A stretch of DNA of 64,000 bases from Styela clava (lineage: Eukaryota > Chordata > Ascidiacea > Stolidobranchia > Styelidae): positions 14,880,001-14,944,000 of the forward strand of contig NC_135251.1 in NCBI RefSeq assembly GCF_964204865.1. Direction: 5' to 3'. The notes below the pieces were generated by a model. The model was not told the origin of the DNA, did not search any database, and saw nothing but the letters and a program-made list of their open reading frames with translations. The translations under genes were made by a program, and so were the position numbers. How positions within the stretch are numbered: position 1 is the stretch's first letter; every line of letters starts with the position of its first letter. Below, in pieces: positions 1 to 61,189 of this stretch.

Positions 1-528
1 ACGCCGGTTTCTCCAACCATGAAGCCGACTCCAGTGTCAACTAAAAAGCCATTTGTCGCGTCTAAAAAACCATCACCTAAGAAACCAATTACACCAAGCA
101 AACCCCCAAAAATTCCATCGAAGAAACCCGAGACGCCGGTTTCTCCAACCAAGAAGCCGACTCCAGGGTCAACTAAAAAGCCATTTGTCGTGTCTAAAAA
201 ACCATCACCTAAGAAACCAATTACACCGAGCAAACCCCCAAAAATTCCATCGAAAAAACCCGAGACGCCGGTTTCTCCAACCATGAAGCCGACTCCAGTG
301 TCAACTAAAAAGCCATTTGTCGCGTCTAAAAAACCATCACCTAAGAAACCAATTACACCAAGCAAACCCCCAAAAAGTCCATCGAAGAAACCCGAGACGC
401 CGGTTTCTCCAACCAAGAAGCCGACTCCAGTGTCAATTATAAAGCCATTTGTCGTGTCTAAAAAACCATCACCTAAGAAACCAATTACACCGAGCAAACC
501 CCCAAAAATTCCATCGAAGAAACCCATT
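1..528 (+). repeat. Four in-frame 132 bp coding repeats (44 residues each)
   Basis: The phrase acgccggtttctccaacc recurs at 1, 133, 265 and 397, an exact 132 bp period. Each unit codes a 44-residue block rich in Lys, Pro, Ser and Thr, with KKP spaced through it. Units differ by only a few bases (for example ATG against AAG in the second codon group, and a Thr-Lys to Ile-Ile change in the fourth), so the array is young or kept uniform. It may extend left of the window. Confidence 0.95.
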
Positions 529-3500
529 TCTCCGGTTGAAAAACCTAGAAAACCAACAGAAAAGCCAACAAAAAAACCATTATTACCAAGGAAACCATTG
601 AGAAAACCCGGCGCTGGCAAGAAACCTACATTACGAAGGAAACCTACTGGATCCAGACGAAAACCAGGCGTGGCTCCCAAAAAGCCAGCCACTCCGTCTA
701 AAGCACCTGCAAAAAAGCCAACCGCTCCAACGAGAGGGCCTCTGAAAAAGCCTGTTACAGGGAAAAGACCTAATTTACGCAGAAGGAAACCATTAGGAGC
801 TAGAAGGCGACCAGGCGTAGCTCCCAAGAAGCCCATCGGAACTATAAATAGGCCAACCCCAGTAAAACAAAAGCCTGGTGAAACTGCCAAAACACCTAAC
901 GTTCTGATAAAACCAACTTCTGTGATTGAAAAGCCAGTAACAACAGCCACTGCGACAAAGGAACCAACAAAAGAAATAATTATACAGACCACAGAACCAC
1001 CTACGTCGCCAAAATTGTCTCCCACTACAACAAAAGCAACCGTATCAACAATTCAGCCTAGCACAACCACAAAAGAATTGAAAAAAACAACCGTTGCAAC
1101 CACTATTCCTATTGTGGCGACAAAGATACCAACTGAAACCAAAAAACCAACCATTCCGAGACAAGCTCCTGCAAAAAAGCCAACCGCTCCAAAACGAGGG
1201 CCACTGAAAAAGCCTCTCACAGGAAAGAGACCCAATTTACGCAGAAGGAAACCATTGGGAACTAGAAGACGACCAGGTGTGGCTCCTAAAAAGCCTACCG
1301 GCACTACGAAGCCAGTTCTAACCCGACAAAAGCCTAGTGAAACTGTCAAAAAACCTGAAGTTCCGACGAAACCAACTACTCCAATTCAAAAGTCAACAAC
1401 AACTGCGACAAAGGAACCAACGACAGAAACAATTTTACAAACCACAGAACCACCTACTTCGCCAAAATCAACGACATCATCGACACAGAGATCTGTTTCT
1501 GTCACGGAGAAACCAGCAGTCACTAAAAAAACAGTCACGCCTAGTAAAGCACCTACAAAAAAACCGGTAGTTACAAGAAGGGGACCCCTAAAAAAACCTG
1601 TTTGGGGAAAAAGGCCAGCTTTATCTAGAAAGAAACCTATTGCTGGTATTAAGAAACCGGGAGAAATTGCAAAGAAGCCCGTGGGTACCAGAAAGAAGCC
1701 AGGTATGGCCAAGAAAAAACCGGGTCTATCTGTCAAGAAGCCAGCGGGTGCCCAAAAGAAACCGTTTGTTGGTAAGAAAAAGCCTGGAATCCAAGGTAAA
1801 AAGCCTGGTTTGGCTCGCAAGAAACCATTACTCGCCAGAAAGAAGCCTGGCTTTGGTAAAAAACAACCTGTTAAAAAGCCGCCAATAAAACGACGACCTG
1901 TACCAACTAAAAAGCCTATTAAAAAACCTTTGCCCGGAAAAGGTAAATTGGGATTAAAACCTGTTGCCAAAGGACGAACCGGACCTAAGCCTGTAGTCGG
2001 AAAAGCAATAAAAACTCCTACAACAACAAAATCAGCGGCAGTAAGTACAACAGAAGAACCAACTACTACTATTGCGCCAACCACAACTGAAATCACAACT
2101 ACTAGAAAAACAACCACCACGAAACCAACAACCACGACCCCCAAAACTAGGCCCACAATGCCAACTTACCGCGCATTACAACCAATAACGCGACGACCAG
2201 CTTACCCACGCCGACCCACAACTCGTCCACCTCCTCGATTAGCAGCACGAGGTCGACTTGGAGCCAACTCTGGATTCCGCCCACTTGCCCCCGCAAGGCC
2301 ACCGATACGAGCCCGCCCGTCACTCCCAATTTTCCGTCCTCTTGTACCATTGAGTAACCGACCCATATTGCCAAGACCCGTGGGTACGTTTTCACCCGAG
2401 AGTGTTGCAATATTGAAAAAAGTTCCAAATGTACCGGGAAAAGAATTAGATCAGATAGATGATAAATTTGCTGTGGCGAAAGATGGAGATGCATGGCAAG
2501 GGATGGATGATGGATTGAATTATAAGCCTCAACTGACTATTAACAAAACAGTATATGGTTGCCCATACTACGAATCAAATATTACAGTTTTTAGCTTTTG
2601 GCCAGGAGGCTTCAATGCAATGGTAAATTTCTCTCGTCTAACGAAACCAATGATGAATGGATGGATAGTGAAAATACAATTCGAGTCACCAATACTTGAT
2701 ATTGAAACCCACGTTGTTAATTTCTTCATCGCCACAGACGACAGAAAAACCGTTGCGTTTTTGCCTAAGCCGTATATGGCAGTACTTCATTATAATCAGG
2801 TAAGTGCGATATTGGTGTATAAATTTTTCATATTGATAACTTGGTTAATATTATAACATATACAAATCAAAATACAACATACACAATATAAAATTTGTAT
2901 CACATATATTATGTCAACTATTTGAATTTTCGCAAATTTTGCAGGATTTGACAGTCGCCTTTATTGGAAAGGTTGGCAATGAAGACATAAATGTGCCCCG
3001 TGGCAGAGCGTTGCTCATGGGAAAATGTACTGACGACATACTCGCTGGCAAAGTTGTTGGAAACATGTTTCAAGGACAAAAAGTACTAGAAAAACTTGGA
3101 AACGGCACTAAAGCAAAAGAGTGAGTATCGATGTATTTTTATTTTATTTTTTTCATTACATCATCTGTGAAATTTCCACACAATTATGAAGAATCATTCA
3201 GAAACTTATTTATAACTTGCATTTATATGTACATTTGAAAAATATTGTTTTAATTCCAGGGTTCCAAGCGCTCCAACAAGACCTCCAGCAGTTTCAAGAG
3301 CGACAGCCACTGAGCAAACTCCAGCTCCAAGAAGACCAGGAGCGGCAGGAGCTGGAGTCAGGCGGCCCGGTGCGGCAGGAGCTGGAGCCAGACGGCCCGG
3401 AACGGCTGGAGCTGGAGCCAGACGGCCCGGAACGGCAGGAGCTGGAGCACGACGACCAGGAACAGCAAGACGCCCTGGAGCAGCACCCCGACGAACCGCT

Positions 3501-6500
3501 CGGCCAAGATCAGCATTCAAGCCTCGTCCCGGGAATATCTGGCCCGCAAATAGATGCTTGGCAAAATCTGCTAATGGTGTCCTTCCAGAAGGAGGATTAA
3601 CAAGACCAAAATGGTCTAAAAGCTCAAGCAAAAGTAACCATAACAAGTCTTTAATTTTATCATAAATTTACAAGATTTGTTGGTTTAGTTTCTCAATCGT
3701 GAACAAAAACGCAAAATTTTGTATATATATATCAAATATGCGGAAAAATATCAATACTTGAAACTTGAATTTGGCGATGCTTTGAATGAATTAGGAATTT
3801 TGGTAGAATGATAGCAATAATTTGAAGTCAATTTCCTGCTTATTGGTCGCTTCGTATTACAAGACATAGAACATCATTTACATCATCATATTATCATCAT
3901 TTGTTTCGCTTCATTATAAACACTGTCAAAAACCTCATCTACATTATCTATATTTTACCTTTCATTTACACAGAATCAATCTATGATTACAACGAAGTTC
4001 TGCATAAATCTGGACTTTTCTACATGGCTCAGAAATCTGGCAAACTTCCTAAAATATTCCCAATACCTTGGAGAGGCGACTCTGCACTGAAGGATGGATG
4101 TAACACTGGGGACGCCTTGTTCGGAGGACTTTACAGTGGTAAGTTTGAGATTAACTTCTTTTACAATCGATAATGTTTAGTAATACATAAATGAATTATA
4201 TCTAGCCTAATCCAATTACAATAACGTATATGTATAATAATTTTGGCAGCTGCGTAATTTTGAATATAGACCTCTTCTCATTCATAAGATAAGTAGGTTG
4301 AGCGAGTCCAAACATATAAATCAGATATATATAGCTTCTGTGATCATCCGGAGAGCAAGAGCACGCATGATGATCCCGCATTTTAAATCTGTATATTTCG
4401 TGTTCTGATGAGTTGTCAACGACACCATGGATGTGACTGCAATTTGCTTATTCAACGCTGAACATAAAAACATTGTTATATCATCATAATCACTATGTTT
4501 CGATAATTTGGCCCACTGCTCACAAAAAAACTATTCTGATCAACTTTAGGTGCTGGTTACGAAAAGTCTACATTGGCTATTGCATTTACAACAACTATGC
4601 TTGCTTGGGGAGGAATTGATTATAAATCAGCATACACTGCCGCTGGTGAATACGACGATCTTGTGAAAATCATTAAAAGTAACGCAAACTATTTGATTCG
4701 CTGTCACACAAGCGCGAATGAGTTAGTGGTTCAGGTCAGTTTAAATTAAAAATGTAATAATATATTTTCATCTCTTGATCTATACTGCGTTCGAACCCGA
4801 ATTGGGCCACCAGTACTCAGTTACCTCACCTTGGGTGTAAAAACTCTGGTACATAATTTATATATAATGTTGCTGGTAGATGAGAATACTTCTGAACAAA
4901 TTGTTGTTTCAAACATTTGCGGTAAATAAAAGTCCAACATATGGACAATCAGTATAGCTGGTATATGACTTAACAACCTTTATTTCTTAGAAATATGGAA
5001 AAAGTAAGTAATAAAATACCAAGTAGTAATGACCATACAACGAAAGAATAATGATATGATTATATAAATATGAAAGAGATGTGCTAACATGTAGAGAAAG
5101 ATGTGACTACACATTACAGCATGCAGCTTACATTGTCAAGCAACAATAACTATCATTTATATTTGTTTCTTGAACTATAGATAGGAGACTATGATTCAAG
5201 TGGAACGAAATGGACAAGGCCAGAAGAGCTGGACGTAGAAGGAAGAAAAATATACAAGATAAATACTAAAAATCCAGGCCAAGATGTTGCTGCTGAAACA
5301 GCGGCCGCTCTAGCTGCAGCAGGATTCATGTTCAAGTCAACAGGTATGTCACCCGTTGAAATAGTTAATAATTTTAATCAATTATTTGTTTTACTTAATT
5401 AAATTAATCACTGCTAAGACATAGATTGTTGATGGATTTAGGGGAATGAACTCGCATAACTTTGCCATGGAGTGTTAATATTTAAATTTCATTTTCTCCA
5501 TGCCTTTTACGTTCATAATAAAGCTGGATAAATCCTATCTTAAACTTTTGTTGTTTTACCCCGGTCTTGCGAAAAATCGGGAAACAAACTGTTAGAAAAT
5601 TTCACTTAATTAATTCCACTGGATTAAAGAAATGGACAAATCATATAAGACAAGCCGAGAGTTGGTTGTTGTTAAATATAATCACATAAGTAATTCAGGA
5701 AGTTCTTTCGGAATTTAGTTGATTTAATGGTAATATGAGCTGGAAGGAGATATCGTTAATGGCATGATGTTATCTTATTCTGTCTCGCACAAAACGACTT
5801 GTCAGAATTTAACTCCGGAATTTTTGTTCAACAGATTCCAAGTTTTCTCAAGAATGTTTGCTCCACGCCAGGCAATTGTACAGTTTTGCACAGAAATATC
5901 CAGGCAAATATAGTCAAGTCATTCCCTCAACTGCGAACAGATATCATACGACATCTGACACTTTGGATGATTTGGTAAATTAATTATTTAGTATATATTA
6001 TTTATATTACTAAATAGGACATTACAATTCAACGTATTTGGTAGATCGATCATAGCTAAACATAACAGATAGAAATGCTGTGGTTACTCAAATTATATCA
6101 CAGTTAATAACTAGGTAGCGATCGGAGACCGCCGACTTATCGAACTTCCGCATGTTCAATCGCTCTGACTCAATAGCGACACCGCGTGTCCCATCACTTA
6201 TTAAATAATATCTTGCTAATTATACCACATAATTCATCCAAAATCAAGAGGCTTCTGGTCCGAGATATGATGGATGCACATGCAAAATTTGGAGCAGATT
6301 TAACCTCGCTTTCGTGAGATATCGCGTAGCATACGAAAGTGTCTAACAGACAAACAGAAAGACAAATACCTATCAACATACTTATCGATCGAGATCGCTA
6401 AATAATAAATTTGACTCGGTTTCCTCAAGTAATCTATTCTATTTTTCACGCGGCCAATAAACCCAATGCAGGCTATATTTATTACTATCTTGATGACATT

Positions 6501-8666
6501 TTTACCAAAAAACAACGAATGTGGCTGAAAATCAGAAAATTTGTTATTATTATGATACAAAGTAAAAATAAACTCAAACTCTTCAGCGGGCACAGCGGCA
6601 TTTAATTTTTGCGAATATTTTTATATTAACTTAAAATTTCCTGCTCATTTCAGGTGTGGGCAATGCTTTGGATGGGTAAAGCTACAGGAAATAAAGCATA
6701 TTTTGAAAGAGCAGAAGCTATGTACAAGAAAATCACCACAAGTCCTGTAAACCTGTTCTACTGGGAAGATAAAACAAACGCATTGCCGGTATGTTTTGTC
6801 GATAATATTTTGCATATTGAAGTCCTATTAAAATAACCAAATTGTGAAAGTCTTGTGGAAGTATACTCAGCTCCAAGTTTGCTGGCTGAAGATAAGCCAG
6901 TTAGATTAATGCATAATGCAATGCATATTTATATTAATTTAGTTTCTGTATTTTCATACTTTCATACATGCAAATTCATACTTTTGCCGAATGAATGTGT
7001 CTAACGATCTTTTTTAATAGCGAAGGACGTTTATGTAAATTTTCAACTATTGAAAAATCATAACATTCAGAAAATCGTTAATTCCATTTATTTACTGAAT
7101 TAATTGGAAATTATTGAATTTTCAGATATTGTTAGCCAAATTCACGAAAAAGAAGGATTATTTGATAGAGTCTAGAAAATTGATAATCAAACTGGCGAAG
7201 AATGGAACGCGAACACCGAGCAAACAGCTTTGGTTACATGAAAAGGGAACAAACATGCACACGGGTAATTTTGTTAAAATACATTCTCATTACTATTTTC
7301 AAACTCTTGAGAAGTATTAGTTTATCTTATGAGAATGGATAAATGTCCCAATTCCTATTTGGAAGACAACTACAGAATGCGTCATGACAATGGGAAAGTC
7401 AAGTCGGCATCGGATTTAGGCGCTAATAGAACTATATTCGATTATGTGTGACCAGAAAATCGGCAAACAAACTTCATAAAAGACTACTTTGTTTTATTCA
7501 AAAGTATTTTTTATTAAAATTTTATAGCAAACTCTGCGTTTTTGGCACTGCAGACAGCAATGATATATAAACGCTTTCCGTTCGGATCAATAGCAGCATC
7601 ATTTGCAGAGGAACAACTTCATTTGCTTCTGGGTGACGGTGAACGTAGTTACGTTGTCGGATTCGGTAAGAATTACCCGAAACGTCCTCATCATATGGCA
7701 AGGTAAATGACTTTATTGTTTGTAAGATATTTCTTGCATTCCCCAATGATAACAAGAACCCGGCTTGTATTTAGGGAGTCTATAGCTTGGGGATATATTA
7801 GATTTAAATATAATATTAGTCGAGACGTGATATTGCAAATTATTCTAAGGTGCATGGTGGGGGTTGACGTATAATAGGCATAATTAACTTAGGTACCATA
7901 ATATTACATTTTTAAGAAGTCAGTGTATTACGCAGTACGGTGGTTCATTTATTGTTTCACAACGCTTCGTTTTTTAAATCCTTGCTAGTTGTGTAACTCG
8001 TAGTATTACTGTACTCGGAGGTATTCTTCTGTACTGTCAGGAACCTACTACTGAGAGTTATATTCCTGCTTATTAGTGATGAATAACTAACAAATATAAT
8101 ACCTTAATTTTCAGTTCATGTCTTGATCCACCCGCTAAGTGTGATGCTTCTCGTTTACGTATATCAGCTGACAGTCCACATACATTGTATGGAGCCTTGG
8201 TCGGTGGACCTGATCAGCAAGGAAAGTGAGTACAATTAACTTATTTGATGAAAATATTTTGGTTAGAACTGAGTATATACTTGGCTTACGGAATATTAGC
8301 AGAATGAACAACAACCTTTTAATCCTTCACAGTTAGTTTTTTTTATATATTTATAGCAACCCAAAATTTCCACAAGATACATTTGTTATTAATACGATTT
8401 CTCAGGTGTTTAATCGAAATAGGTTTTACAGATAATGATTGACGACACAACTGTTAATATTCTTTCATTCTTCATTACCATACAGATACAACGATTACAT
8501 TACGGAGCAGATTCAAAACGAAGTAGCCATCGATTTTAATGCTGGATTCCAATCAGCTATAGCAGGGTTACGAGAAATGCAACTCCCGGGAAAATATCTG
8601 ATAAAATCCTCGTCAAACCAGTTGCGTAGGGTGGGACAACCTGTTCGAAAGAACAATGCAGGATAA
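1..8666 (+). CDS. GH9 endoglucanase-like protein with CBM2-like module and Lys/Pro repeats (5' partial, 12 exons)
   Basis: Exons seen: 1-2799, 2945-3120, 3260-3633, 3974-4138, 4550-4734, 5181-5343, 5835-5974, 6654-6788, 7126-7264, 7528-7702, 8115-8225, 8486-8666. All junctions keep frame, giving about 1580 residues; the frame is open at base 1, so the start and any signal peptide lie upstream. Order: Lys/Pro-rich repeats (about 1-690), Thr-rich and Pro/Arg linker, CBM2-like module (about 849-985, from YGCPYYESN, with GW and a second Cys in GKCTDD), an Arg-Arg-Pro-Gly/Ala-Gly linker, then GH9 (about 1117-1580). GH9 hallmarks are WRGDSALKDG, AFTTTMLAWGG, LWLHEKGTNMHTANSAF, the PHH motif and NEVAIDFNA with the acid Glu. 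The family's DAGD aspartates are replaced at the exon 4/5 join (SGGAGYEK) and HHR is HHM. GH9 enzymes cut beta-1,4-glucan; this one probably binds cellulose outside the cell but may not cut it. Family call very sure, activity doubtful. Confidence 0.9.
700..1640 (+). repeat. Three longer degenerate coding repeats in the same exon
   Basis: A block beginning APAKKPTAPTRGPLKKPVTG (about base 702) returns at about 1165 as APAKKPTAPKRGPLKKPLTG and, more diverged, at about 1549 as APTKKPVVTRRGPLKKPVWG. The first two continue into a shared Arg-rich stretch (GKRPNLRRRKPLG) and then a Thr-rich stretch, so the higher-order unit is roughly 400-460 bp. It shows that the linker grew by internal duplication at more than one scale. 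Confidence 0.8.
2545..3075 (+). other. CBM2-like cellulose-binding module within the GH9-like gene (spans intron 2800-2944)
   Basis: The segment starts with a Cys (YGCPYYESN), then FWPGGFNAMVNF and NGWIVKIQFESP, and ends near GKCTDDIL with a second Cys that could close the module. This resembles family 2 carbohydrate-binding modules: paired terminal Cys, Trp-x-Gly-Gly-Phe and Gly-Trp. One of the usual surface Trp positions is not obvious (the matching region reads IETHVVNFF), so binding strength cannot be judged. The assignment rests on pattern only. Confidence 0.65.
6118..6401 (+). mobile_element. MITE-like element, copy A (intron of GH9-like gene)
   Basis: A non-coding element of about 300 bp found five times in this window. 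Shared landmarks in order are ACTTATCGA near the left end, a GCGACACCGCGTGTCCCATCA-like segment (about 6175-6195), GCTTCTGGTCCGAGATATGA, TCGCTTTCGTGAGATATCGCG, a CAGA-rich stretch, ACCTATCAACATACTTA and a terminal GATCGAGATCG. This copy is the most diverged of the five and lies in the intron between the exons at 5974 and 6654. Confidence 0.7.
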
Positions 8667-14740: not shown

Positions 14741-15141
14741 CGAGAATATCGGTTGGAAACCGAAGACTTATCGATCGATAGTTAGGGGATCCCCCAAAAC
14801 AGAAACTGCAGTTTCGATTCATCCGCTCTTGTAACTTGCGCACTGCGCATCGCACACACACACTCGGCGGGTTTCAAAATTCTCTCGCTTTACAAAAATC
14901 TAGATCACTATATCAATAATTGATTGATAACTCGCTAATTATACGACATAATTCGCCCAAAATCAATAGGATTCTGGTCCGAGATAAGATGAATGCACAT
15001 GCAAAATCTGGAGCAGATTCAATCCCGCTTTCGTGAGATATCGCGTGCATCTAACAGACACACACACACACAGACAGACAGACATACAGACAGACATACA
15101 AATACCTATCAATATACTTACCGATCTTAAGATCGATAAGT
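14741..15141 (+). mobile_element. MITE-like element, copy C (absent from duplication copy 1)
   Basis: In copy 1 the site reads gacaacgaagaaatcaacg; here about 400 bp sits between gaagaaa and tcaacg. The insert begins CGAGAATATCGG and ends with ACTTACCGATCTTAAGATCG then ATAAGT, a near-perfect hairpin. It contains the family landmarks plus extra ACACAC and CAGA microsatellite. The empty site in copy 1 defines the element ends to within a base or two. Confidence 0.8.
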
Positions 15142-15324
15142 AATCAACGAACATTACCGTAAAGTTGATTAGCGTATCCACGCGTATGGCGTCCATAGCG
15201 TGCAGATTCTCGTACGGAAATATAGCAATCCATTCAATACAATATACAGTGGTAACAAGTCGAACTGCATCTAATGCTATGGAGTAAAACACCCAATCGG
15301 CTTCGTGCAGCCATTTTATGTCCC
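15142..15324 (-). pseudogene. Rolling-stone-like exon 3 fragment, copy 2
   Basis: Duplicate of the fragment at 10400-10583: same acceptor and same GDIKWLHEADW frame, with a Val to Ile change. The frame now runs directly into the inserted MITE-like element at 15141, which replaces the boundary seen in copy 1. Confidence 0.65.
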
Positions 15325-15724
15325 CTATAATCACATAAGAAAGTATTCCATAACATGGAATCAACATTCAGATTGAAACAATGCATGGTGCATCAATGAT
15401 ATCAATACTCGAATCAAGTTATAGCACCTTCACAATCAGGAACTTCCCGGCGTTCAGAATCAGCACGTGTATTCTGTCGGGTTAGATTTTGTCTTTCTTC
15501 TGTTTGTATTTTCAAGGGGCAAAGATACATTTGCCATTTTGAACCGATATTTCAGTATACCACTGAATGCAGAAAGATTGATCATACGGTAAAGCAGCGG
15601 TTCCTAACCGGACACCGGGGCTCAACAAGGGGTCCAAAGAGCAGTTTGAGGGGTGCTTCAATGCTGGGCGAAAAACTGATTTTATTTCATTTCCTCCATT
15701 TCCAAAAACCCGTGCTTCTTTGTT

Positions 15725-18139: not shown

Positions 18140-19940
18140 TTACACCCTGGCACTTCCATTTGCAGAAACCATTACTTCAAGTCCAACGTTATTTTCTCCA
18201 TCTCCACCTTCATTGCCGTTTTCCCCAACAGTAGGCTGCATACACGACGACTTTATTGCTATGAATGCCCTCAAGTGGTAGAAACCAAAAGACACCGCGT
18301 GTACAGCAGGTGCGCCTACTAAAATAACTGCAAAGACAACACCAGTTGAAACTCCTGGTTCTGATTTCCAGTCTAAAATACCAGCGTAAAATTCCGATTT
18401 ATCATTTGCTCCGTGCAGTATCAACGTAATCAATACGTACGTGATGCCGTATAGAGAGACGTAAACGAAATGCAAAAACCGAACCGGAACACGAGAAATA
18501 AACAGGTCTATAGTGACCAGAACTGAATTCATAACGTGCTGGTGAATATTGACAGCGTTACTAGTCACTTTGTTATCTGTAAGGAAACTCCAATACAGAA
18601 TTGTGATGATATACTGTGCTCCTGTTGAGGCTGAACTCGTCACCCATGTTAAATGGTGAAACCATCGTAGTTCGTCTGAAATAAATACATCCAGAAATAA
18701 CAAAAAAGTAGAACTTAAATTACATCAAAATGTCAGTTATACATAAGTCAAATGAAATTTTTCAAATATATTCAGTATATTTTATAATAACTCGAACCTA
18801 AAATTTCGATAATAACTTTGAATTTCCTTGGAAATAATAATAATAATTCTGCAAGATATGCAAGAGCAAACTTTTCATATGCCAATCGTGGTATTTAGTG
18901 CCATAAAAATTCAACTATACATTTCCTTTTGCACTATATAAAATATAATCACCTTTATTGCATTTGTTCCCCATACAACAATCTGGTTCAGATCTTCCAA
19001 AATAAGCATCTCTCGTTAATCCATATATTGAAACGACAAGATGAAGAAAGAAGTGAGCTACGAGAGTCCATTCTCCCCAATTTGATAGATATGCATAATA
19101 TTTAGTGTCGTATTTTATAAGATGCATAGCATTCATGATCGACCATAGTAAACAGTAAACGAAAATACATGCTCGATACGCGACGTAGACAGACTTGAAA
19201 CGAAACCACTGAAAATATAAAAATATGTTAATATGTATATATTTCTTTTTCAGTTAACTAATGATTTTGAATGTTATAATAATGTTTTATTATTTGAGCA
19301 CTGGAATTTTCTAATGGGTATATTAAGAAAGCTTGAAAGCCCCTACATAAGTGTAGATCCGTTCCAAAGTCACGTTAACTGAACCTTCAAGACGTAGACG
19401 AAGTTTGGAATTAGGCTATTAGCTGAAACATCTTTCAGTCAAAATTCAAACCGAATGGTGGTGAAGTTGATAACCTTGCGTGGTGAGACTATGAATGCGC
19501 GTTCATTCAATGTTATATTCTCAGATTCACCACACCAATTATATTCTCATCTGAAATTGTCGTCCAGGAGCCTGTGCTCCGTTTTTATACCAGATCGCTC
19601 ATAGTACCTAATTTTTCAGCTATTCATTTAACGTTTCTGAGGACTTGTAACCATAGACATCCCTATTAAAGAACTCTATCGTGATAGTCTCGAGTGGCTC
19701 ATAGTTACTGAACTTATGTGGAAAAAAATAAGGGTGCGTAACGGTACTTTGATACCCAATTATATCTTCGAATCAACTTTTAAAAAACACACATCCGTTG
19801 AACTAAAAAATTTTCAAATAAATATTCAAGTATTCTAAAAAAAAATTTGTTACCTGTGCTGAGTAGAAGTCAGTGGGTTTTGCATCGGCAAATCCAATAT
19901 GTTTACGTTGAAATTCATATGCACAAGAAGTAACAGCCAT
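18140..19940 (-). CDS. Rolling-stone-like multi-pass membrane protein A
   Basis: Three exons on the minus strand: 19854-19940 (start codon at 19940), 18953-19208 and 18140-18675, with phases 0 and 1 and about 292 residues. The N-terminus MAVTSCAYEFQRKHIGFADA leads to DFYSAQ|WF, the family's conserved entry to the first membrane segment. YLSNWGEWTLVAHFFLHLVV matches the Tyr-Leu-Thr/Ser-Asn-Trp core of rolling stone. Exon 3 starts DELRWFHHLTWV and holds several further hydrophobic segments ending at SFGFYHLRAF, then a Gly/Asn/Glu-rich tail. Drosophila rolling stone is needed for myoblast fusion; for invertebrate deuterostome relatives the role is unknown. First of three intact tandem paralogues, with two broken fragments further downstream. 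Confidence 0.9.
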
Positions 19941-22600: not shown

Positions 22601-24164
22601 TTAAACGTCCTCTTTGGGGTGTGACATCTCAAAACCAGAATTGTCCTCCCCGCTATTCTCTGAACTTGTGGAAGAACAACCACCACTTCTCGCAATGAAA
22701 GCCCGGAGATGGTAAAATCCAAAACTAACTAGATGTATAATGGGTGATCCTACAACGATCAGCCCAACACATACACCGGCACTGATACCAGGTGCACTTT
22801 CCCAGTCCAAAAGATTTGTATAGAAAGCCGATTTCACATCTGCTCCGTGTAGAATTGCGGTAAAAAGCACATACGTTAGTCCATAAAGGGACACATAAAT
22901 AAAATGAAATAAGCGAATTGGAATTCGTGAAATGAAAATATCTAAAATCATTAACACGGAATTCATTATGTGTTGGTGTACGTTTGCGGGCACAGAGGCT
23001 ACACTTATGCCAGATAAAAATGCCCAGTAGATAATGGTTACAATGAAGTTGACACCAGCTGTTGCCGTAAGTACAACCCAAGTTAAATGATGAAACCAAC
23101 GAACATCACCTGTAAAAGTAAATAATCGATATTTGTCCGCTTGTACATACTAGATATGAAGGCTACTGTGGCTGTGGTTGTTTCAAATACATTGATCCAA
23201 CAATTGCTCTAGGTCTACATCTATAATCATAACCGACTTGATTCGGGCCATCCAAATGAGTATAAGACAATAGTGAACGTGTTTCAGCCGCTTAGTTGTG
23301 TATACCAATTGTCTAGTCTATAGTATTATAATGATACATTCATTTACATGCTTGTATTTGAGTCTGTGAGGTGTGTGCAAAAACAGTTCAAATGGGCATA
23401 GTCTACCTAATCATGCATGACTTGGAATTTTCCGTTTTGTGGTAAACTATCCATATAATTTTTATGTTTTGGAGCTTATAAATGAAGTTGACCTCGTCAA
23501 ACTTACCATTGTTGCATTGGTTTCCTGGGCAGCATCCAACTTCAGTTGACGTCGAGTCTCTTGATTGTGAGAACAAACCATAGATTGCCACTAGAAGAGC
23601 AAGAAGAAAATGTACAACTAGTGTCCATTCCGCCCAGTTAGACAAATACGCAACGTAGATTGGGTATGCTTCTACAAGAATAATTGTTGTATTGATCGAC
23701 CAAATCAGACAGTAGAGAAACATGAAGGCACGATACAGAACGAACAGAATTTTAGAGTTGAACCACTGTAAAAGAAAATATTACTATTATATCTTTCATT
23801 GAAAAATTTTCGAGTTTAAAAAGCATTAACTTTGATAATGTATAATGTTGAAAAGTAAAAGCTTTTAGATAAAGCTCGTAAAATAAAATCATTTTCCATT
23901 GTTCTTGAAATTCTTTAACATGAACTGCAAAAGCGTTCAAATAGCAGTATGCATAAGCAGGATACTGGAATGTGTAAATTAATTTGAATAACGTAATATA
24001 GAAGTAGCTTACAATAAAAATTTAAAGCAATGCAATAGCACAAAGGAAAAATTTGGCAATTCGTTATACTGTATACTTACTTGTGAAACATAGAAATCCG
24101 ACGCAGAAGCATCTGCAAACGCAAAATGTTTGAGTTGAAATTCGTAACCACAGCTTGTGGCCAT
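22601..24164 (-). CDS. Rolling-stone-like multi-pass membrane protein B
   Basis: Three exons: 24081-24164 (start at 24164), 23507-23765 and 22601-23109; phases 0 and 1; about 283 residues. MATSCGYEFQLKHFAFADAS then DFYVSQ|WF opens the protein. Exon 2 has FMFLYCLIWSINTT and YLSNWAEWTLVVHFLLALLV; a Cys pair (GCCPGNQCNNG) sits in the loop before exon 3, like CCMGNKCNKG in gene A. Exon 3 begins GDVRWFHHLTWVV and ends in a Ser/Gly-rich acidic tail. Sequence and exon structure are closest to gene A. A multi-pass membrane protein is certain; its biological role is not. Confidence 0.9.
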
Positions 24165-27269: not shown

Positions 27270-29320
27270 TTATAACAAGCTCTCTTCTTGACCCAGAGAA
27301 TCACAATTCAGTTTCTTATTAATATCTTCATCATTACTACCATTTGCAGTCTCGTTATTGCGTTGACATGCTCTGGAGTCAAGTTCTGAATCCCGTTTTC
27401 TTCCTGCAAGTTTCCTGGCTAAAAAAAATCTCAAATGATAAATGCCAAACGCTAGGAAATGTACTAGTGGAAACCCAACACAAAGCACGCTCAGGCCTAC
27501 AATCGTCGATATAACAGGGGCATCCTGCCAATCTATAACACCATTGTAAATCTTTGTCTGCAGCCCAGTGACGTACAAAATTAGCGTCAATAAAGTATAT
27601 ATAGTTCCGTAAAACGCCACATAGACAACGTGAAGAAGACGGAATTGGATGCGTGAGACCATCAAATCAATCGTGATCATAAGTGTCGTTATCCCATGTT
27701 GATGAATTATAATTAGTAATGGCATTGCGTCTTCTTCTCCGGCCAGAAAAGTCCAAAACATTATAGTAATCAAGTACTCAAGGTCTGTAGATAATGTCGC
27801 CAGAACCCAACAGAGACGGTGAAACCATCGAAGTTCGTCTGAAAGTGACAAAATATATTATATTTTTGGGCAAAATTCCGTTGTAGTCAAACAATTCTAT
27901 CATATGATGAATGATTAGGAAAAACTTTCTTATTTCTACTATAACGAGGACAAACTGTAAGTGTTGGTAAGCGTTTTTTCATCAATAAATACTTTTCAAT
28001 CACGCTTGATAATTATATACGCAAACCTATGTAGCAAAATGCATTTATTCGAGAGACGTTCAGACACTACAGGTATTCATAAATATAAATTAGTTTAACA
28101 ACAAAAATAGTGTTATTAACTAATAACTATAAGTAAGTACTAAAGTACCTTGCTCACGATTACTCAGAGCAGAATAATTCGGTATATCAGAAGATTCTTG
28201 TGTATTTGTGTAATTATTATCTTTTCTCACGCCGTACATAACCGTTCCAAATGAAACTCCAAAGTACAAACATAGTGTCCATTCCGCCCAATTGGTAAGG
28301 TAAGCAAACGTATAGAGCCCTTCATATTGGAATATATTCACAATCACCCATACGAGGGAATATAGAAACATAGCACCACGATAACATGCAAAAAGTCTTC
28401 TTGATTTGAACCACTGCAGTTAAAGTAAATATATATTAAATTTGCTCAAATTATAAAATAACAATATTAAAAAAAAACTAACAATCTTTTTATTACATTT
28501 TCCAAAAATTATTGAACACGAAGTGTGAATATGTGTCTCGTTTTCAAAAGTGTTGTGGGGTTTTCTACGAGACTAATGAAACAATCGATCTCAGAATTTT
28601 GAGAACCTGAGTATGGAGTCGCTAGAGGGCTATTACTTTAATTTGCTATTTCAGAATGTTGCGTCACCATGTGGCATTACTTCATTCCAAGGTAGCTATC
28701 TTCTCGACATGTCCGATACTCCGCTAAAGCCTTAGTGTACTCGTTATGGCTTCTCATGGAATTTGCAATTTCGATTGGAATGACCAGATAACAGAATTGT
28801 GTGTAAAATTCGCATAGGCAGCCGCGGTTGAAGACTGGGGACTTTCATGTCGATACATTCGAGCATTGCTCACTTATATATTGATATGAAATCGATTCTT
28901 AGAAACTTTTTAGCTAAGTATGTATTATCCATTAGTTTAAATTAGACAGTTGGCTTCATCGTTTTTTGTGCAACAAACATAAAGTTTGTTTATAGGCAAT
29001 CAGGAATTATCTACAAAAGAATTTCTTGTCAAACAATGTGACTTTAGAAGAGATGAAATCTTATAGATTTAAAAATTCCAAGATGTTGTTTCATATCGAA
29101 TTTCAACACAAATTTAAATATCCAACTCCAAATATTTCGAGAAATCTATGAAACATTTTGAGTTAAATAATAGCACATTGCACATAACGAAAAATCCCAT
29201 ATTTATACGATATATACGCAAAAAGGAACTGCAAACCTGTGAAGCATAGAAGTCATCCGGTTTGACATCAGCAAATCCAAAATGCTTTTTTTGGAACTCA
29301 TATCCACAACTCGTCGCCAT
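27270..29320 (-). CDS. Rolling-stone-like multi-pass membrane protein C
   Basis: Three exons: 29237-29320 (start at 29320), 28149-28413 and 27270-27838; phases 0 and 1; about 305 residues. MATSCGYEFQKKHFGFADVK then DFYASQ|WF is nearly the same start as gene B. Exon 2 carries AMFLYSLVWVIVNIF and YLTNWAEWTLCLYFGVSFG; the Cys pair found in A and B is missing and is replaced by a Ser/Asn-rich loop (NNYTNTQESSDIPNYSALSN). Exon 3 starts DELRWFHRLCWVLATLSTDL and ends with a longer polar tail (about 46 residues, Lys/Arg then Asn/Asp/Glu-rich). The most diverged of the three intact paralogues. Confidence 0.9.
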
Positions 29321-45617: not shown

Positions 45618-47538
45618 ATGGAAACCAAATTTAGAAGAGTTCCATATTTGACATCACCAGTGAAAAAAGAGTTCCAGCCTTTTTATATACCCAACTCAAA
45701 TGATAGTGCGTTCATAAAACAAAGTCGTTCAGGTGAGATTTATTGTAGACTACATATTTACAAATTTGTCTCAAAATTTTGCCCAAATTTTATTTTATTT
45801 AAATATTTTGATCTATTATAACAAAGGATTTCATTAGTAAGTCATGAGTGTGAAATAAACTACTCAAATATACGTTTTGTGGAAACTGCAAAAAATGATA
45901 TTTACGTTCGTTCCATGATACGCCCGAAAAAAATCGAGCGATTTTTAGTAATGATTTACAATATTTTAATCAATTAGTCAGCACCACCATAACTGGCTAT
46001 TGAAAATATTATTTTCAATTTTTTTTGACAAAAAATAATTCTTGCAGCTATAGGTACAGATAGAAAGATATGCCCATTGTATTTGCATATATACTATTAT
46101 TACATTCCACTACTTTAATTCGAAAACAAACTTTATTCATCAAATTTTTAGCAGCTCACAGAAATAGCATGAAGGATTCTTTATGTTACAATTTAAATAA
46201 AGAAAAAGAGAATCGAGAAAATTGTCGTCTTGCTAGATTGCCTTCTCCACCATGGAAGTCCAAAATACCAATCGAAACGCATACCATGTCGGACAAACTT
46301 TTTCGTGACAAAAAGAAAAGAACGAGAGCGGCATTTACTCATTCTCAAATAAGGGAGTTGGAAAATAGATTTGCTGTTCAAAAATACTTGTCAGGACCTG
46401 AAAGATCAGAATTTGCCAATGCGTTAGATCTCACAGAAACGCAGATAAAAATATGGTTTCAAAACAGGTAAATAAATATTTGTTTTGAATGTGCATACCC
46501 GTCATTCTATTTGTATCTCCCTACAGGTAGAAAAAAATATTGCAATCAGCTTTTTTGTGAAGAATAGTTAAAAAAAAAACTGCATATTTGCAGCGCTCTC
46601 ATGTAAAAAAGCTATTCTTCAGATGTAAATATCTAAACTTTATTTCAACTGATTGTATGTCGAATATTGCTATCGTGATATACATGATTCTTTCAGCGCC
46701 ATTTTGTTTTTCAGAAGGTACAAAACAAAGCGACGTTTGCGACTAGCCGCTGAAATGATGTTTGTCGCAACACGACATCGTCTCCATGCTTCTGTGGCAT
46801 CAATGGTACAATCTCCAATCCAACGACTTATGTCGTTTCACCAACACAGATTCCCAATTCATGAATCACCATTATTTCAGCCCGTTTTTGGACAGATGCA
46901 CACAAATTCTTTATTTGGAATGCCAGGTAGAGTTCCAAAATTAATTGGATTCAAAGCTCTTCGTCCTTGTAAAATTATGTAAAGAATGAAGTTCTAAATC
47001 ATTTTTTTAATTAATTAAATAACCTCAAAAGACAATCAGAACACTTTAATTTCGAATATCTGTATTATACCGTAACACCTACATACGGTAGCCTACAATA
47101 GTTAAAATTTGACAGCTACAGATTGTTCTTTATTTTGCAGGGTTACCACAGGTTCAAGGCACATTCAGCAATAGAGTTTTTATATCCCCGGCAAAAAGGA
47201 ACAACATTCAACTACAAACTGATTTATTATCAAGCTTAAAATTTACGCCAATTGATGATACCAACTCACGCCCTCCCTTTCCAAGCGCAGCAACCACCAT
47301 CCCTGGTAGCATTTCAGACCAGAGAAGATTTGAAAATATACAAGACATTTGTTCCTTCCGTGGTACGGACTTGCACGACGACTTTGACAAGACCAAGATA
47401 CGTCCTTTTGATATTAGAGAACTTCTTAAGCCAGCAAATTCTGACTTGGTAAATTCACAAAATAGTCGTACTCGTGAATACAAATGCAACTCATACCCAC
47501 ATCAATTTCTGCTTTATCCAAAATATGGTGAAATATAG
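45618..47538 (+). CDS. NK3-class homeobox transcription factor
   Basis: Four exons: 45618-45732, 46152-46467, 46715-46926, 47141-47538; frame is kept at every join; 346 residues. The homeodomain covers about residues 93-152 ([16 protein letters not shown] ... YLSGPERS ... [20 protein letters not shown]), split by an intron between Asn51 and Arg52 of the homeodomain. YLSGPER, LTETQ and RYKTKRR are features of the Nkx3/bagpipe class; Tyr54 is the NK-type residue. The N-terminus is short (92 residues) and shows no TN/eh1 motif, but FDIRELL near residue 304 fits the eh1 pattern. NK3 proteins act in visceral mesoderm and skeletal patterning in other animals. If the exon 3 donor is skipped, translation ends at 46982 with a different short tail. 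Class assignment is firm; orthology to a particular Nkx3 is not. Confidence 0.88.
47406..47426 (+). other. eh1-like repressor motif in NK3-like protein
   Basis: Codes FDIRELL, which fits F-x-I-x-x-[IL]-L, the Groucho/TLE-binding eh1 consensus. In NK-family proteins such a motif usually lies near the N-terminus (TN domain). Here it lies about 150 residues C-terminal of the homeodomain, in an otherwise low-similarity tail. Motif match only. Confidence 0.5.
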
Positions 47539-59536: not shown

Positions 59537-61189
59537 TTAGATCAGTGATTTTTTATTTTGTATTGACTGGTTCGCAGAAGTTTTTTTCTTTCTTTTACGT
59601 TTTTTCTTTTTTGAATCACCAGAACCATTAGGATGATTTCCATTTTGTTTAGAAAATTTATTTATTTTGTTAGGTTTAATGTAATCCTCTCCCTGTATAT
59701 ATTTCAAAACTTCATCATCCTCTTCTCCATCTCCACTAATTGGACTAATTAATGTAACATCACTATTTATATTATTAACTTGCTCTGGTAAATCAAAGTA
59801 CTTTGCAGTTTCAGAAATTTTTGCAAGGTCCCACAATCTGACTTGACCTTTTTGTCCACCGAAAGCAACAACAGAATTTTCATCTGGATTGCCTTCACAA
59901 CAATGTACCATTCCCATTTTCATATCTTTTTCATGAACTAATTTTGGTTTGTCAAAATTTAGGTCCCAAAGTTTTACAAGACCATCACTAGAAGCAGTTT
60001 GAAGTAAGCAGGAATTATTTTTAGAATCAGATTGATTCAAGAAAAGGCCAGGAATTGCACCTTCATGCGCTTTCCATTTATGTATAAATTCGGTAGGCTT
60101 TCTTACATCACAATAAAAAGCAAAACCAGAATCACAACTGGCAACAAAGTATTTACTATTTTCATTATTCCATGTGATGCGTTCAACTTCCCCATCAATA
60201 GTCCATTGTGCAACTGTTCTTATTTCCAGAGTATCTGTCATAATTATATTTCCATCAAAAGCACCTGACAGTAAATGTTTATCAGATTTTGGCATCCAAG
60301 CTAGAGTTTGAACTTTATTTTTATGGTCTCTGAAGACTCGAGTTGCTTTTCCTAATTCCAAGTCCCAAAGAGCTATAACTGTATCTGCCGATGCGGAAGC
60401 TAGCTGGTCATGTACAACATCAGTCCATGCTATATCTAGAATTGCATCAGCATGTCGAAAGTCAATTTTTCTCCTTTGTTTTGAAACTTTACCTTTCCCA
60501 ATAGAAGCCACAGGCTCTAGTGAATTTAATACATCTAAATCCCATATATCAATCGTTCCATTAAAGTTGCCTACAGCAAGGAGGTTGCCTGAATTCATAT
60601 TCTCAGCACCTGGATCAAATCCAACCCATTGCATACATAATGGTGTTTCCAACAAAGGTATATCATGATGAACATAGAAGTCTCCTGATTTGTGATTATA
60701 TACATAAACTTCCAAAACACTAGAATGTTGACCACATCTGGCACAAACAAGCAGATTGTCATCAGGTTTGAGTTGGACTGCTGACTTTTCTGCTGATTCG
60801 TCTTCAGAATCAGAGTTGATATTTGAATCAGATTTTGACTTCTTTGTGATATAAGGATCCGCATCATTGTCTGCAAACATGACCAAACCAGAAATACCAG
60901 TTGTGAAATCACCTTTTTCATCATCATAATTTTCTAGACCATATTCTTGTAGATCTTCTTCATCAGAATGTGATTTTTCAGGACCAACTTTGATTACAAT
61001 TTTTCTATCATCATTTTCATCTTCCTCAGAATCAGCATCCTCTTCTATATCTTGTAGCTTCTCATTTTTCATAACAAGTTTCAATTCTTCAGGAGTTAGA
61101 ATAACTTGATCAGGTTCAAGTTTTGCAACTCCTCTTTTAACCCATGTCAGACAGAATATCTGACTATTTTTTCCCTTGACTTCATCCAT
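59537..61189 (-). CDS. PWP1: Periodic tryptophan protein 1 homolog (WD40, nucleolar)
   Basis: One uninterrupted frame of 550 codons from the ATG at 61189. The start ICLTWVKRGVAKLEPDQVIL-type region (Phe-Cys-Leu-Thr-Trp) matches PWP1 (VAWVRCGVAKETPD in human), followed by two acidic stretches, YDDEKGDF and DPYITKK. WD40 blades run from about residue 150: NFNGTIDIWDLDVLNSLEPV, ASASADTVIALWDLELGK, LSGAFDGNIIMTD, ASSDGLVKLWDLNFDKP and MKMGMVHCCEGNP with FGGQKGQVRLWDLAKI. The tail is basic (KKKKRKRKKK), a likely nucleolar signal and longer than in human PWP1 (about 501). PWP1 supports ribosomal RNA transcription and ribosome assembly. The lack of introns contrasts with every other gene here, but the frame looks intact and conserved. 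Same strand as CDK5RAP3. Confidence 0.95.
   Translation of the reverse strand: MDEVKGKNSQIFCLTWVKRGVAKLEPDQVILTPEELKLVMKNEKLQDIEEDADSEEDENDDRKIVIKVGPEKSHSDEEDLQEYGLENYDDEKGDFTTGISGLVMFADNDADPYITKKSKSDSNINSDSEDESAEKSAVQLKPDDNLLVCARCGQHSSVLEVYVYNHKSGDFYVHHDIPLLETPLCMQWVGFDPGAENMNSGNLLAVGNFNGTIDIWDLDVLNSLEPVASIGKGKVSKQRRKIDFRHADAILDIAWTDVVHDQLASASADTVIALWDLELGKATRVFRDHKNKVQTLAWMPKSDKHLLSGAFDGNIIMTDTLEIRTVAQWTIDGEVERITWNNENSKYFVASCDSGFAFYCDVRKPTEFIHKWKAHEGAIPGLFLNQSDSKNNSCLLQTASSDGLVKLWDLNFDKPKLVHEKDMKMGMVHCCEGNPDENSVVAFGGQKGQVRLWDLAKISETAKYFDLPEQVNNINSDVTLISPISGDGEEDDEVLKYIQGEDYIKPNKINKFSKQNGNHPNGSGDSKKKKRKRKKKTSANQSIQNKKSLI

Follow-up and report, generated by a model that had tools for sequence, protein, structure and literature searches.

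The Klotho proteins have inactive GH1-like domains in tandem, by which a protein ligand is bound, and the chitinase-like protein YKL-39, an inactive GH18, is reported to bind its sugar, according to the available part of one source (PMC7828330). Among animals, GH6 has been reported from tunicates alone, and the available part of the report in question describes the GH6 domain of the tunicate cellulose synthase (CesA) as being without a catalytic Asp, and the larvacean GH6-1 as a dead GH6 domain too (PMC10334666). For T. fusca 1js4, the excerpt at hand of another paper gives D55 and D58 as the catalytic base residues, with a Glu as the acid (PMC4221708). The cellulase families of ascidians are treated as digestive, and dead domains are not mentioned, in the accessible portion of a further study (PMC6011409). 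An inactive animal GH9, or a poly-GH9, was not found among the open-licence papers listed, which does not imply its absence from print. To our knowledge, the protein organisation of tunicate cellulose fibres is poorly known. Below we report a gene of the tunicate Styela clava that ends in a GH9 domain without the base Asp pair, and place this domain among the other GH9 domains of the same genome.

The window analysed here is a stretch of 64,000 nucleotides (C2:14880001-14944000), and the genome searched along with it comprises 376.6 Mb in 379 contigs. On its plus strand, 12 exons between 1 and 8666 belong to a gene which enters from upstream and ends with its stop at 8666; no stop interrupts the 1579 codons of the spliced exons, and each of the 11 introns is GT-AG. 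Exon 1 (1..2799, +) is an open frame without stop, being the window part of an exon of about 6.2 kb that starts upstream of the window, at about 6640 of locus L009. It contains a Lys/Pro-rich region with tandem repeats (132 bp or 44 aa, 4.0 copies at 1-525), after which a CBM2-like module begins. This module (2548..3028, +, limits by eye) occupies 2548-2799 of exon 1 and 2945-3028 of exon 2 (2945..3120, +), the latter joined by GT-AG with the frame kept. Exon 3 (3260..3633, +) has 30-bp (10-aa) repeats RRPGxAGAGA at 3339-3467, plus the linker RCLAKSANGVLPEGG, which by eye resembles the linker preceding the GH9 domains of paralogues. The GH9 domain itself is encoded by the last nine exons, all on the plus strand: exon 4 (3974..4138), where it starts, exon 5 (4550..4734), exon 6 (5181..5343), exon 7 (5835..5974), exon 8 (6654..6788), exon 9 (7126..7264), exon 10 (7528..7702), exon 11 (8115..8225) and exon 12 (8486..8666), with the stop codon TAA at 8664-8666. 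A splice alignment with the domain as query returned these GH9 exons identically.

The domain belongs to the GH9 sequence family, with a PF00759 match of 360.7 bits (2e-107) over profile positions 1-443 of 444, the cut-off being 27.7, and with 43% identity (E 2.2e-105) to PDB 1ks8, a termite GH9 endoglucanase. As to the residues of a GH9 enzyme, the acid Glu is present and the base Asp pair is absent; in the numbering of the 1ks8 row used throughout, DAGD stands at 54-57 and the acid is E412. The first-pass annotation had claimed that DAGD is lost between WRGDSALKDG (exon 4) and AFTTTMLAWGG (exon 5), which proves right, with SGAG in its place, except that the string given there has one Gly too many. 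Across 4138/4550 (donor GTAAGT, acceptor TTTAG, phase 1), exon 4 ends in AGT G within the former DAGD codons and exon 5 resumes with GT GCT GGT, so that the spliced frame reads GGLYSGAGYEKSTLAIAFTTT. Its alignment with GGYFDAGDFVKFGFPMAYTAT of 1ks8 is gap-free and gives D54 to S, A55 to G, G56 to A and D57 to G, while the Glu of NEVAIDFNA in exon 12 aligns with E412; both Asp are gone and the acid is kept, just as previously read. Four neighbours in the loop that do not vary among nine intact rows differ in the window domain as well (V59E, F61S, P64A, M65I), showing a remodelled loop and not a point error.

That a splice-model or assembly error conceals a normal DAGD we regard as extremely improbable. 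The altered residues do sit on an exon junction, as had been pointed out before, and the splice sites are indeed found there; however, 19 of the 21 GH9 models of the genome, the window gene among them, have an intron that interrupts the four motif codons after their fourth base (L010b and L028 have no intron at the motif), so the junction is ancestral and no bad splice guess. A DAGD-coding piece, already said to be invisible in the intron, is absent from all six frames of the 4138/4550 intron, and the codon pattern GAYGCNGGNGAY occurs nowhere in the whole 64 kb window (0 matches; mean of shuffles 0.16). By tblastn of the domain, no second GH9 exon copy is seen in the window, where only weak matches (E at least 0.10) occur. 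The codons AGT GGT GCT GGT differ by six bases from GAT GCT GGT GAC of the intact L011, and by at least five from any DAGD codons (hand count), and cleft residues are lost in exons 6, 9 and 10 too.

These further losses were counted over eleven 1ks8 positions (54, 57, 124, 206, 253, 301, 305, 359, 360, 361 and 412), chosen as cleft positions of GH9 enzymes. The window domain keeps five of them (Y206, W253, H359, H360, E412) and has lost D54, D57, H124, W301, R305 and R361, against 11 of 11 kept in eight of the nine intact domains of the same genome and 10 of 11 in L011. In exon 6 the H124 region DADH has become DSSG, in exon 9 W301 is replaced by K and R305 by M, and in exon 10 PHHR reads PHHM, while exon 8 retains the equivalent of W253. 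Compared with 101 of 137 other near-invariant sites kept, the five of 11 in the cleft give a Fisher p of 0.076; a differently chosen earlier list gives 5/12 versus 66/83 (p 0.0097). An excess of cleft loss over other conserved sites in the window gene is suggestive. When the other 11 dead domains are tested likewise, with L012-L014 entering the invariance and cleft tests as one row for three domains, p <0.05 is obtained in five to six (L010a, L020, L021, L025, L026, L027) and not reached by L010b, L015, L016, L017 and L024. Judged by its residues, the window domain seems to be disarmed, with an eroded grip on sugar. With the base Asp pair and most of the sugar-gripping residues lost, no cutting of beta-1,4-glucan is expected, and the non-cutting character proposed by the first-pass annotation is well supported by the sequence. 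Its other proposal, cellulose binding, is not supported and is partly contradicted: six of 11 cleft positions are replaced, and the loss of H124, W301, R305 and R361 does not suggest binding through the cleft.

The gene itself is supported as a maintained one by its 1579 codons without stop, its 11 GT-AG introns and its full-length GH9 match. Simulated neutral drift to 66% identity to the start over 438 codons produced at least three stops in 200 of 200 runs, with a mean of 9.2. The dS of the window gene against the paralogues L012 and L015 is not computable, and purifying selection on this gene itself is putative. A DNA search of the genome for a second allele returned the locus itself and, as the second of two matches, a GH9 exon on C16 that agrees at 72% over 115 bp.

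The region preceding the GH9 domain is of unusual extent. Together with L009, the window holds one open stretch of 2055 codons, composed of about 938 Thr/Ser-rich residues and then about 989 Pro/Lys-rich residues, with no Cys in either and 22 sequons; by its composition, the protein may be called mucin-like. Upstream of this stretch, a sushi-like exon covers the whole profile (1-56) with 12.5 bits (E 0.2), below the cut-off of 20.7, and in the intact paralogue L022 a sushi match exceeds the cut-off, with 25.8 bits. By arithmetic, the protein measures about 2700 aa from the giant exon to the stop, that exon included. Neither an N-terminus nor a signal peptide of the giant protein was found in the upstream sequence, and so its secretion is something that we infer. 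The CBM2-like module scores 15.2-16.5 bits against Pfam CBM_2, below the cut-off of 24; two of the four such modules in paralogues score 15.9 and 17.1, and the other two have no CBM_2 match. The module of the window resembles weakly the one upstream of L011 (23.1 bits over 39 aa), and its tblastn against the GH9 loci gives no match. A spliced search with a paralogue module as query finds modules in L011, in L023 and in its own source on C1, with partial matches elsewhere; on the window module it gives a score of 46.8 with nonsense exons, for which reason the Trp residues there were compared by eye. Of the three planar Trp of CBM2, one appears to be kept in the window module and two to be replaced (V, Y). 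All three are present in the modules of L021 and L023 and in the second of L011, and the first module of L011 is also without the third.

Concerning the whole genome, the PF00759 search yields 120 exon matches, which were grouped into genes by eye and give at least 21 GH9 domains; the L010a/L010b boundary was set by hand, the middle exons are uncertain in the models of L022 and L024, and there is a 1-base exon in L024 and an 8-base exon in L028. Twelve of the 21 domains are without at least one of D54, D57 and E412 and are called dead. Motif and acid are DAGD and E in L011, L012, L013, L014, L018, L019, L022, L023 and L028. The dead domains read SGAG/E in the window, TGGG/K in L010a, DGGD/K in L010b, NAGD/Q in L015, DGGD/Q in L016, AGGD/Q in L017, DAAS/H in L020, DAGN/H in L021, HSGD/A in L024, IAGD/Q in L025, DGGD/A in L026 and DGGG/S in L027. 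Thus 11 of the 12 have lost the Glu, and the window domain alone keeps it. Dead and live copies alike have the second DAGD codon split by the phase-1 intron of the 19 models. On a tree of 23 rows, computed with the motif and Glu columns left out and with many forks poorly supported, the dead or intact state changes at least four times when regain is allowed, of which the well-supported branches force only two; a hand count without regain gives five all-dead clades. The window domain stands alone on the longest end branch of the 23 rows (1.48). Among the three dead pairs tested, the usable one is L020/L021, with dN 0.111 and dS 1.006 (NG86) or 0.119 and 0.883 (YN00), hence dN/dS of 0.11-0.14; L016/L017 is saturated (dS 2.96) and L010b/L024 is not computable. 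As for intact pairs, dS is not computable for L018/L019 and is 3.08 for L011/L018. Three near-identical intact GH9 genes, L012, L013 and L014, lie about 15 kb apart at C6:13.93-13.97 Mb, with dS of 0.02-0.06 in the two pairs tested, a recent duplication.

Other dead GH9 domains appear to lie in poly-GH9 genes. L010a and L010b (L010 3944-9569, C2:29.03 Mb) are both dead and share a single open frame with no intron between them. At C1:15.79-15.78 Mb (minus), L021, L020 and L019 are two dead domains and then an intact one, joined without a stop by GT-AG linker exons, one of which, between L020 and L019, had to be 12 bases long; CBM2-like modules lie upstream in this locus by the spliced search. 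Four GH9 domains stand in a row at C16:18.87-18.89 Mb (L015-L018), three of them dead, each with Glu replaced by Gln, and the last intact. GT-AG linker exons can connect L015, L016 and L017 in a frame free of stops, the sites between L016 and L017 being weak, and two attempts to join L017 to L018 each met one stop. The two dead domains L027 and L026 (C8:20.02-20.01 Mb, minus) can also be joined by GT-AG splicing without a stop. All these joins test only frame and splice sites, since the linker queries were taken from the very DNA searched. If L018 is counted in its array, seven of seven non-final domains are dead versus five of 14 final or single ones, with a Fisher p of 0.007 that serves as a description, the domains being related and not independent.

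Putting these results together, we think it probable that the pseudo-GH9 is maintained as a folded module ending a giant extracellular tunicate protein. This protein would contain, in this order, the sushi-like stretch, about 940 Ser/Thr-rich, mucin-like residues, about 990 Lys/Pro-rich ones, the diverged CBM2-like module, the short repeat linker and the C-terminal GH9 domain; it is probably secreted. The GH9 domain, keeping the family sequence at full length, should not cut beta-1,4-glucan, and would most likely act as a folded unit for binding or docking, by which the extended protein is anchored in the extracellular coat, possibly via contacts to protein or to a non-cellulose glycan, or via a weak residual contact to cellulose. 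The structural part in a cellulosic matrix that had been suggested earlier is consistent with the Ser/Thr-rich and Lys/Pro-rich architecture and with the tunicate host, and a role in matrix or tunic is, for its part, what we would infer.

A dead cleft that still grips a glucan chain and crosslinks tunic cellulose, which is how the domain was understood before, seems unlikely to us. It could draw on the five cleft residues kept, Y206, W253, H359, H360 and E412, on the CBM2-like module in front, and on the statement, in the available part of one source, that inactivated carbohydrate enzymes may keep or gain affinity (PMC7828330); but four cleft residues beyond both Asp are lost, and the CBM2 match stays below the cut-off with two of three planar Trp apparently replaced, as compared by eye. 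Far less credit is due to a domain that is still an enzyme of altered substrate, with its base now elsewhere, such as at Glu 59 in SGAGYEK. A carboxylate does stand there, two residues past the lost D57 in a remodelled loop, and the window domain has the acid E412 that the other 11 dead domains have lost; yet all nine intact rows have Val at position 59, and H124, W301, R305 and R361 have gone as well, which makes this reading very improbable. Decay towards a pseudogene without present function would fit the longest end branch, which suits relaxed constraint too, and the eroded residues of cleft and CBM2-like module. Against it stand the open frame of 1579 codons with 11 canonical introns, the retention of 101 out of 137 near-invariant sites outside the cleft and the stops that the neutral simulation predicts, and we hold such decay to be quite improbable.

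The host genome also contains GH6, in keeping with a tunicate. A GH6 exon matches PF01341 with 35.4 bits, and three open frames of L029 (C9:16.18 Mb), when joined, give a GH6 match of 57.3 bits. In L029 the GH6 lies downstream of a hydrophobic open frame, which recalls the fusion in the tunicate cellulose synthase; this hydrophobic frame has no Pfam match. L029 is a likely candidate for CesA. Elsewhere in the window, three related hydrophobic open frames stand in a row at 18140-18724, 22601-23149 and 27270-27857 (minus), with a similar piece at 14963-15367, and presumably resemble rolling-stone-like membrane proteins. An open frame at 46064-46471 (+) has a homeobox-like stretch with KIWFQNR, and a 550-aa open frame with WD-type repeats at 59537-61189 (minus) resembles, we assume, PWP1.

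In a wider view, which we put forward tentatively and with somewhat less than even confidence, a cellulose-making animal may have turned an ancestral cellulase family into non-cutting coat proteins. Twelve of 21 GH9 domains would have been disarmed, on several occasions, some in poly-GH9 chains whose non-final repeats are dead and whose only live domain, if any, is the final one, and that of the window gene as the end of a giant protein of mucin-like and Lys/Pro-rich sequence. With an intron anatomy common to its members and residues lost to different degrees, the GH9 set supplies named candidate coat proteins without catalysis that can be put to the test, and a natural series in which to follow the change of an enzyme fold into a module for binding or structure. 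Compared with the animal GH9 endoglucanases (1ks8, 3wc3, 8ihw), the window domain is alike in its full-length GH9 sequence and its acid Glu, but has neither the base Asp pair nor H124, W301, R305 and R361, and is fused to a giant repeat-rich region. The Klotho proteins are likewise animal glycosidase relatives without catalysis, and the repetition of their domains along one polypeptide recalls the poly-GH9 paralogues; they belong to another GH family and have a receptor role, and only one GH9 is present in the window gene. YKL-39, too, is an animal glycosidase relative without catalysis; it is reported to bind its sugar, whereas the cleft of the window GH9 is itself eroded. The GH6 domain of the tunicate CesA, as far as the available part of its description goes, is similar as a maintained cellulase-family domain without a catalytic Asp in tunicates, and differs in being GH6, of bacterial origin and part of a synthase.
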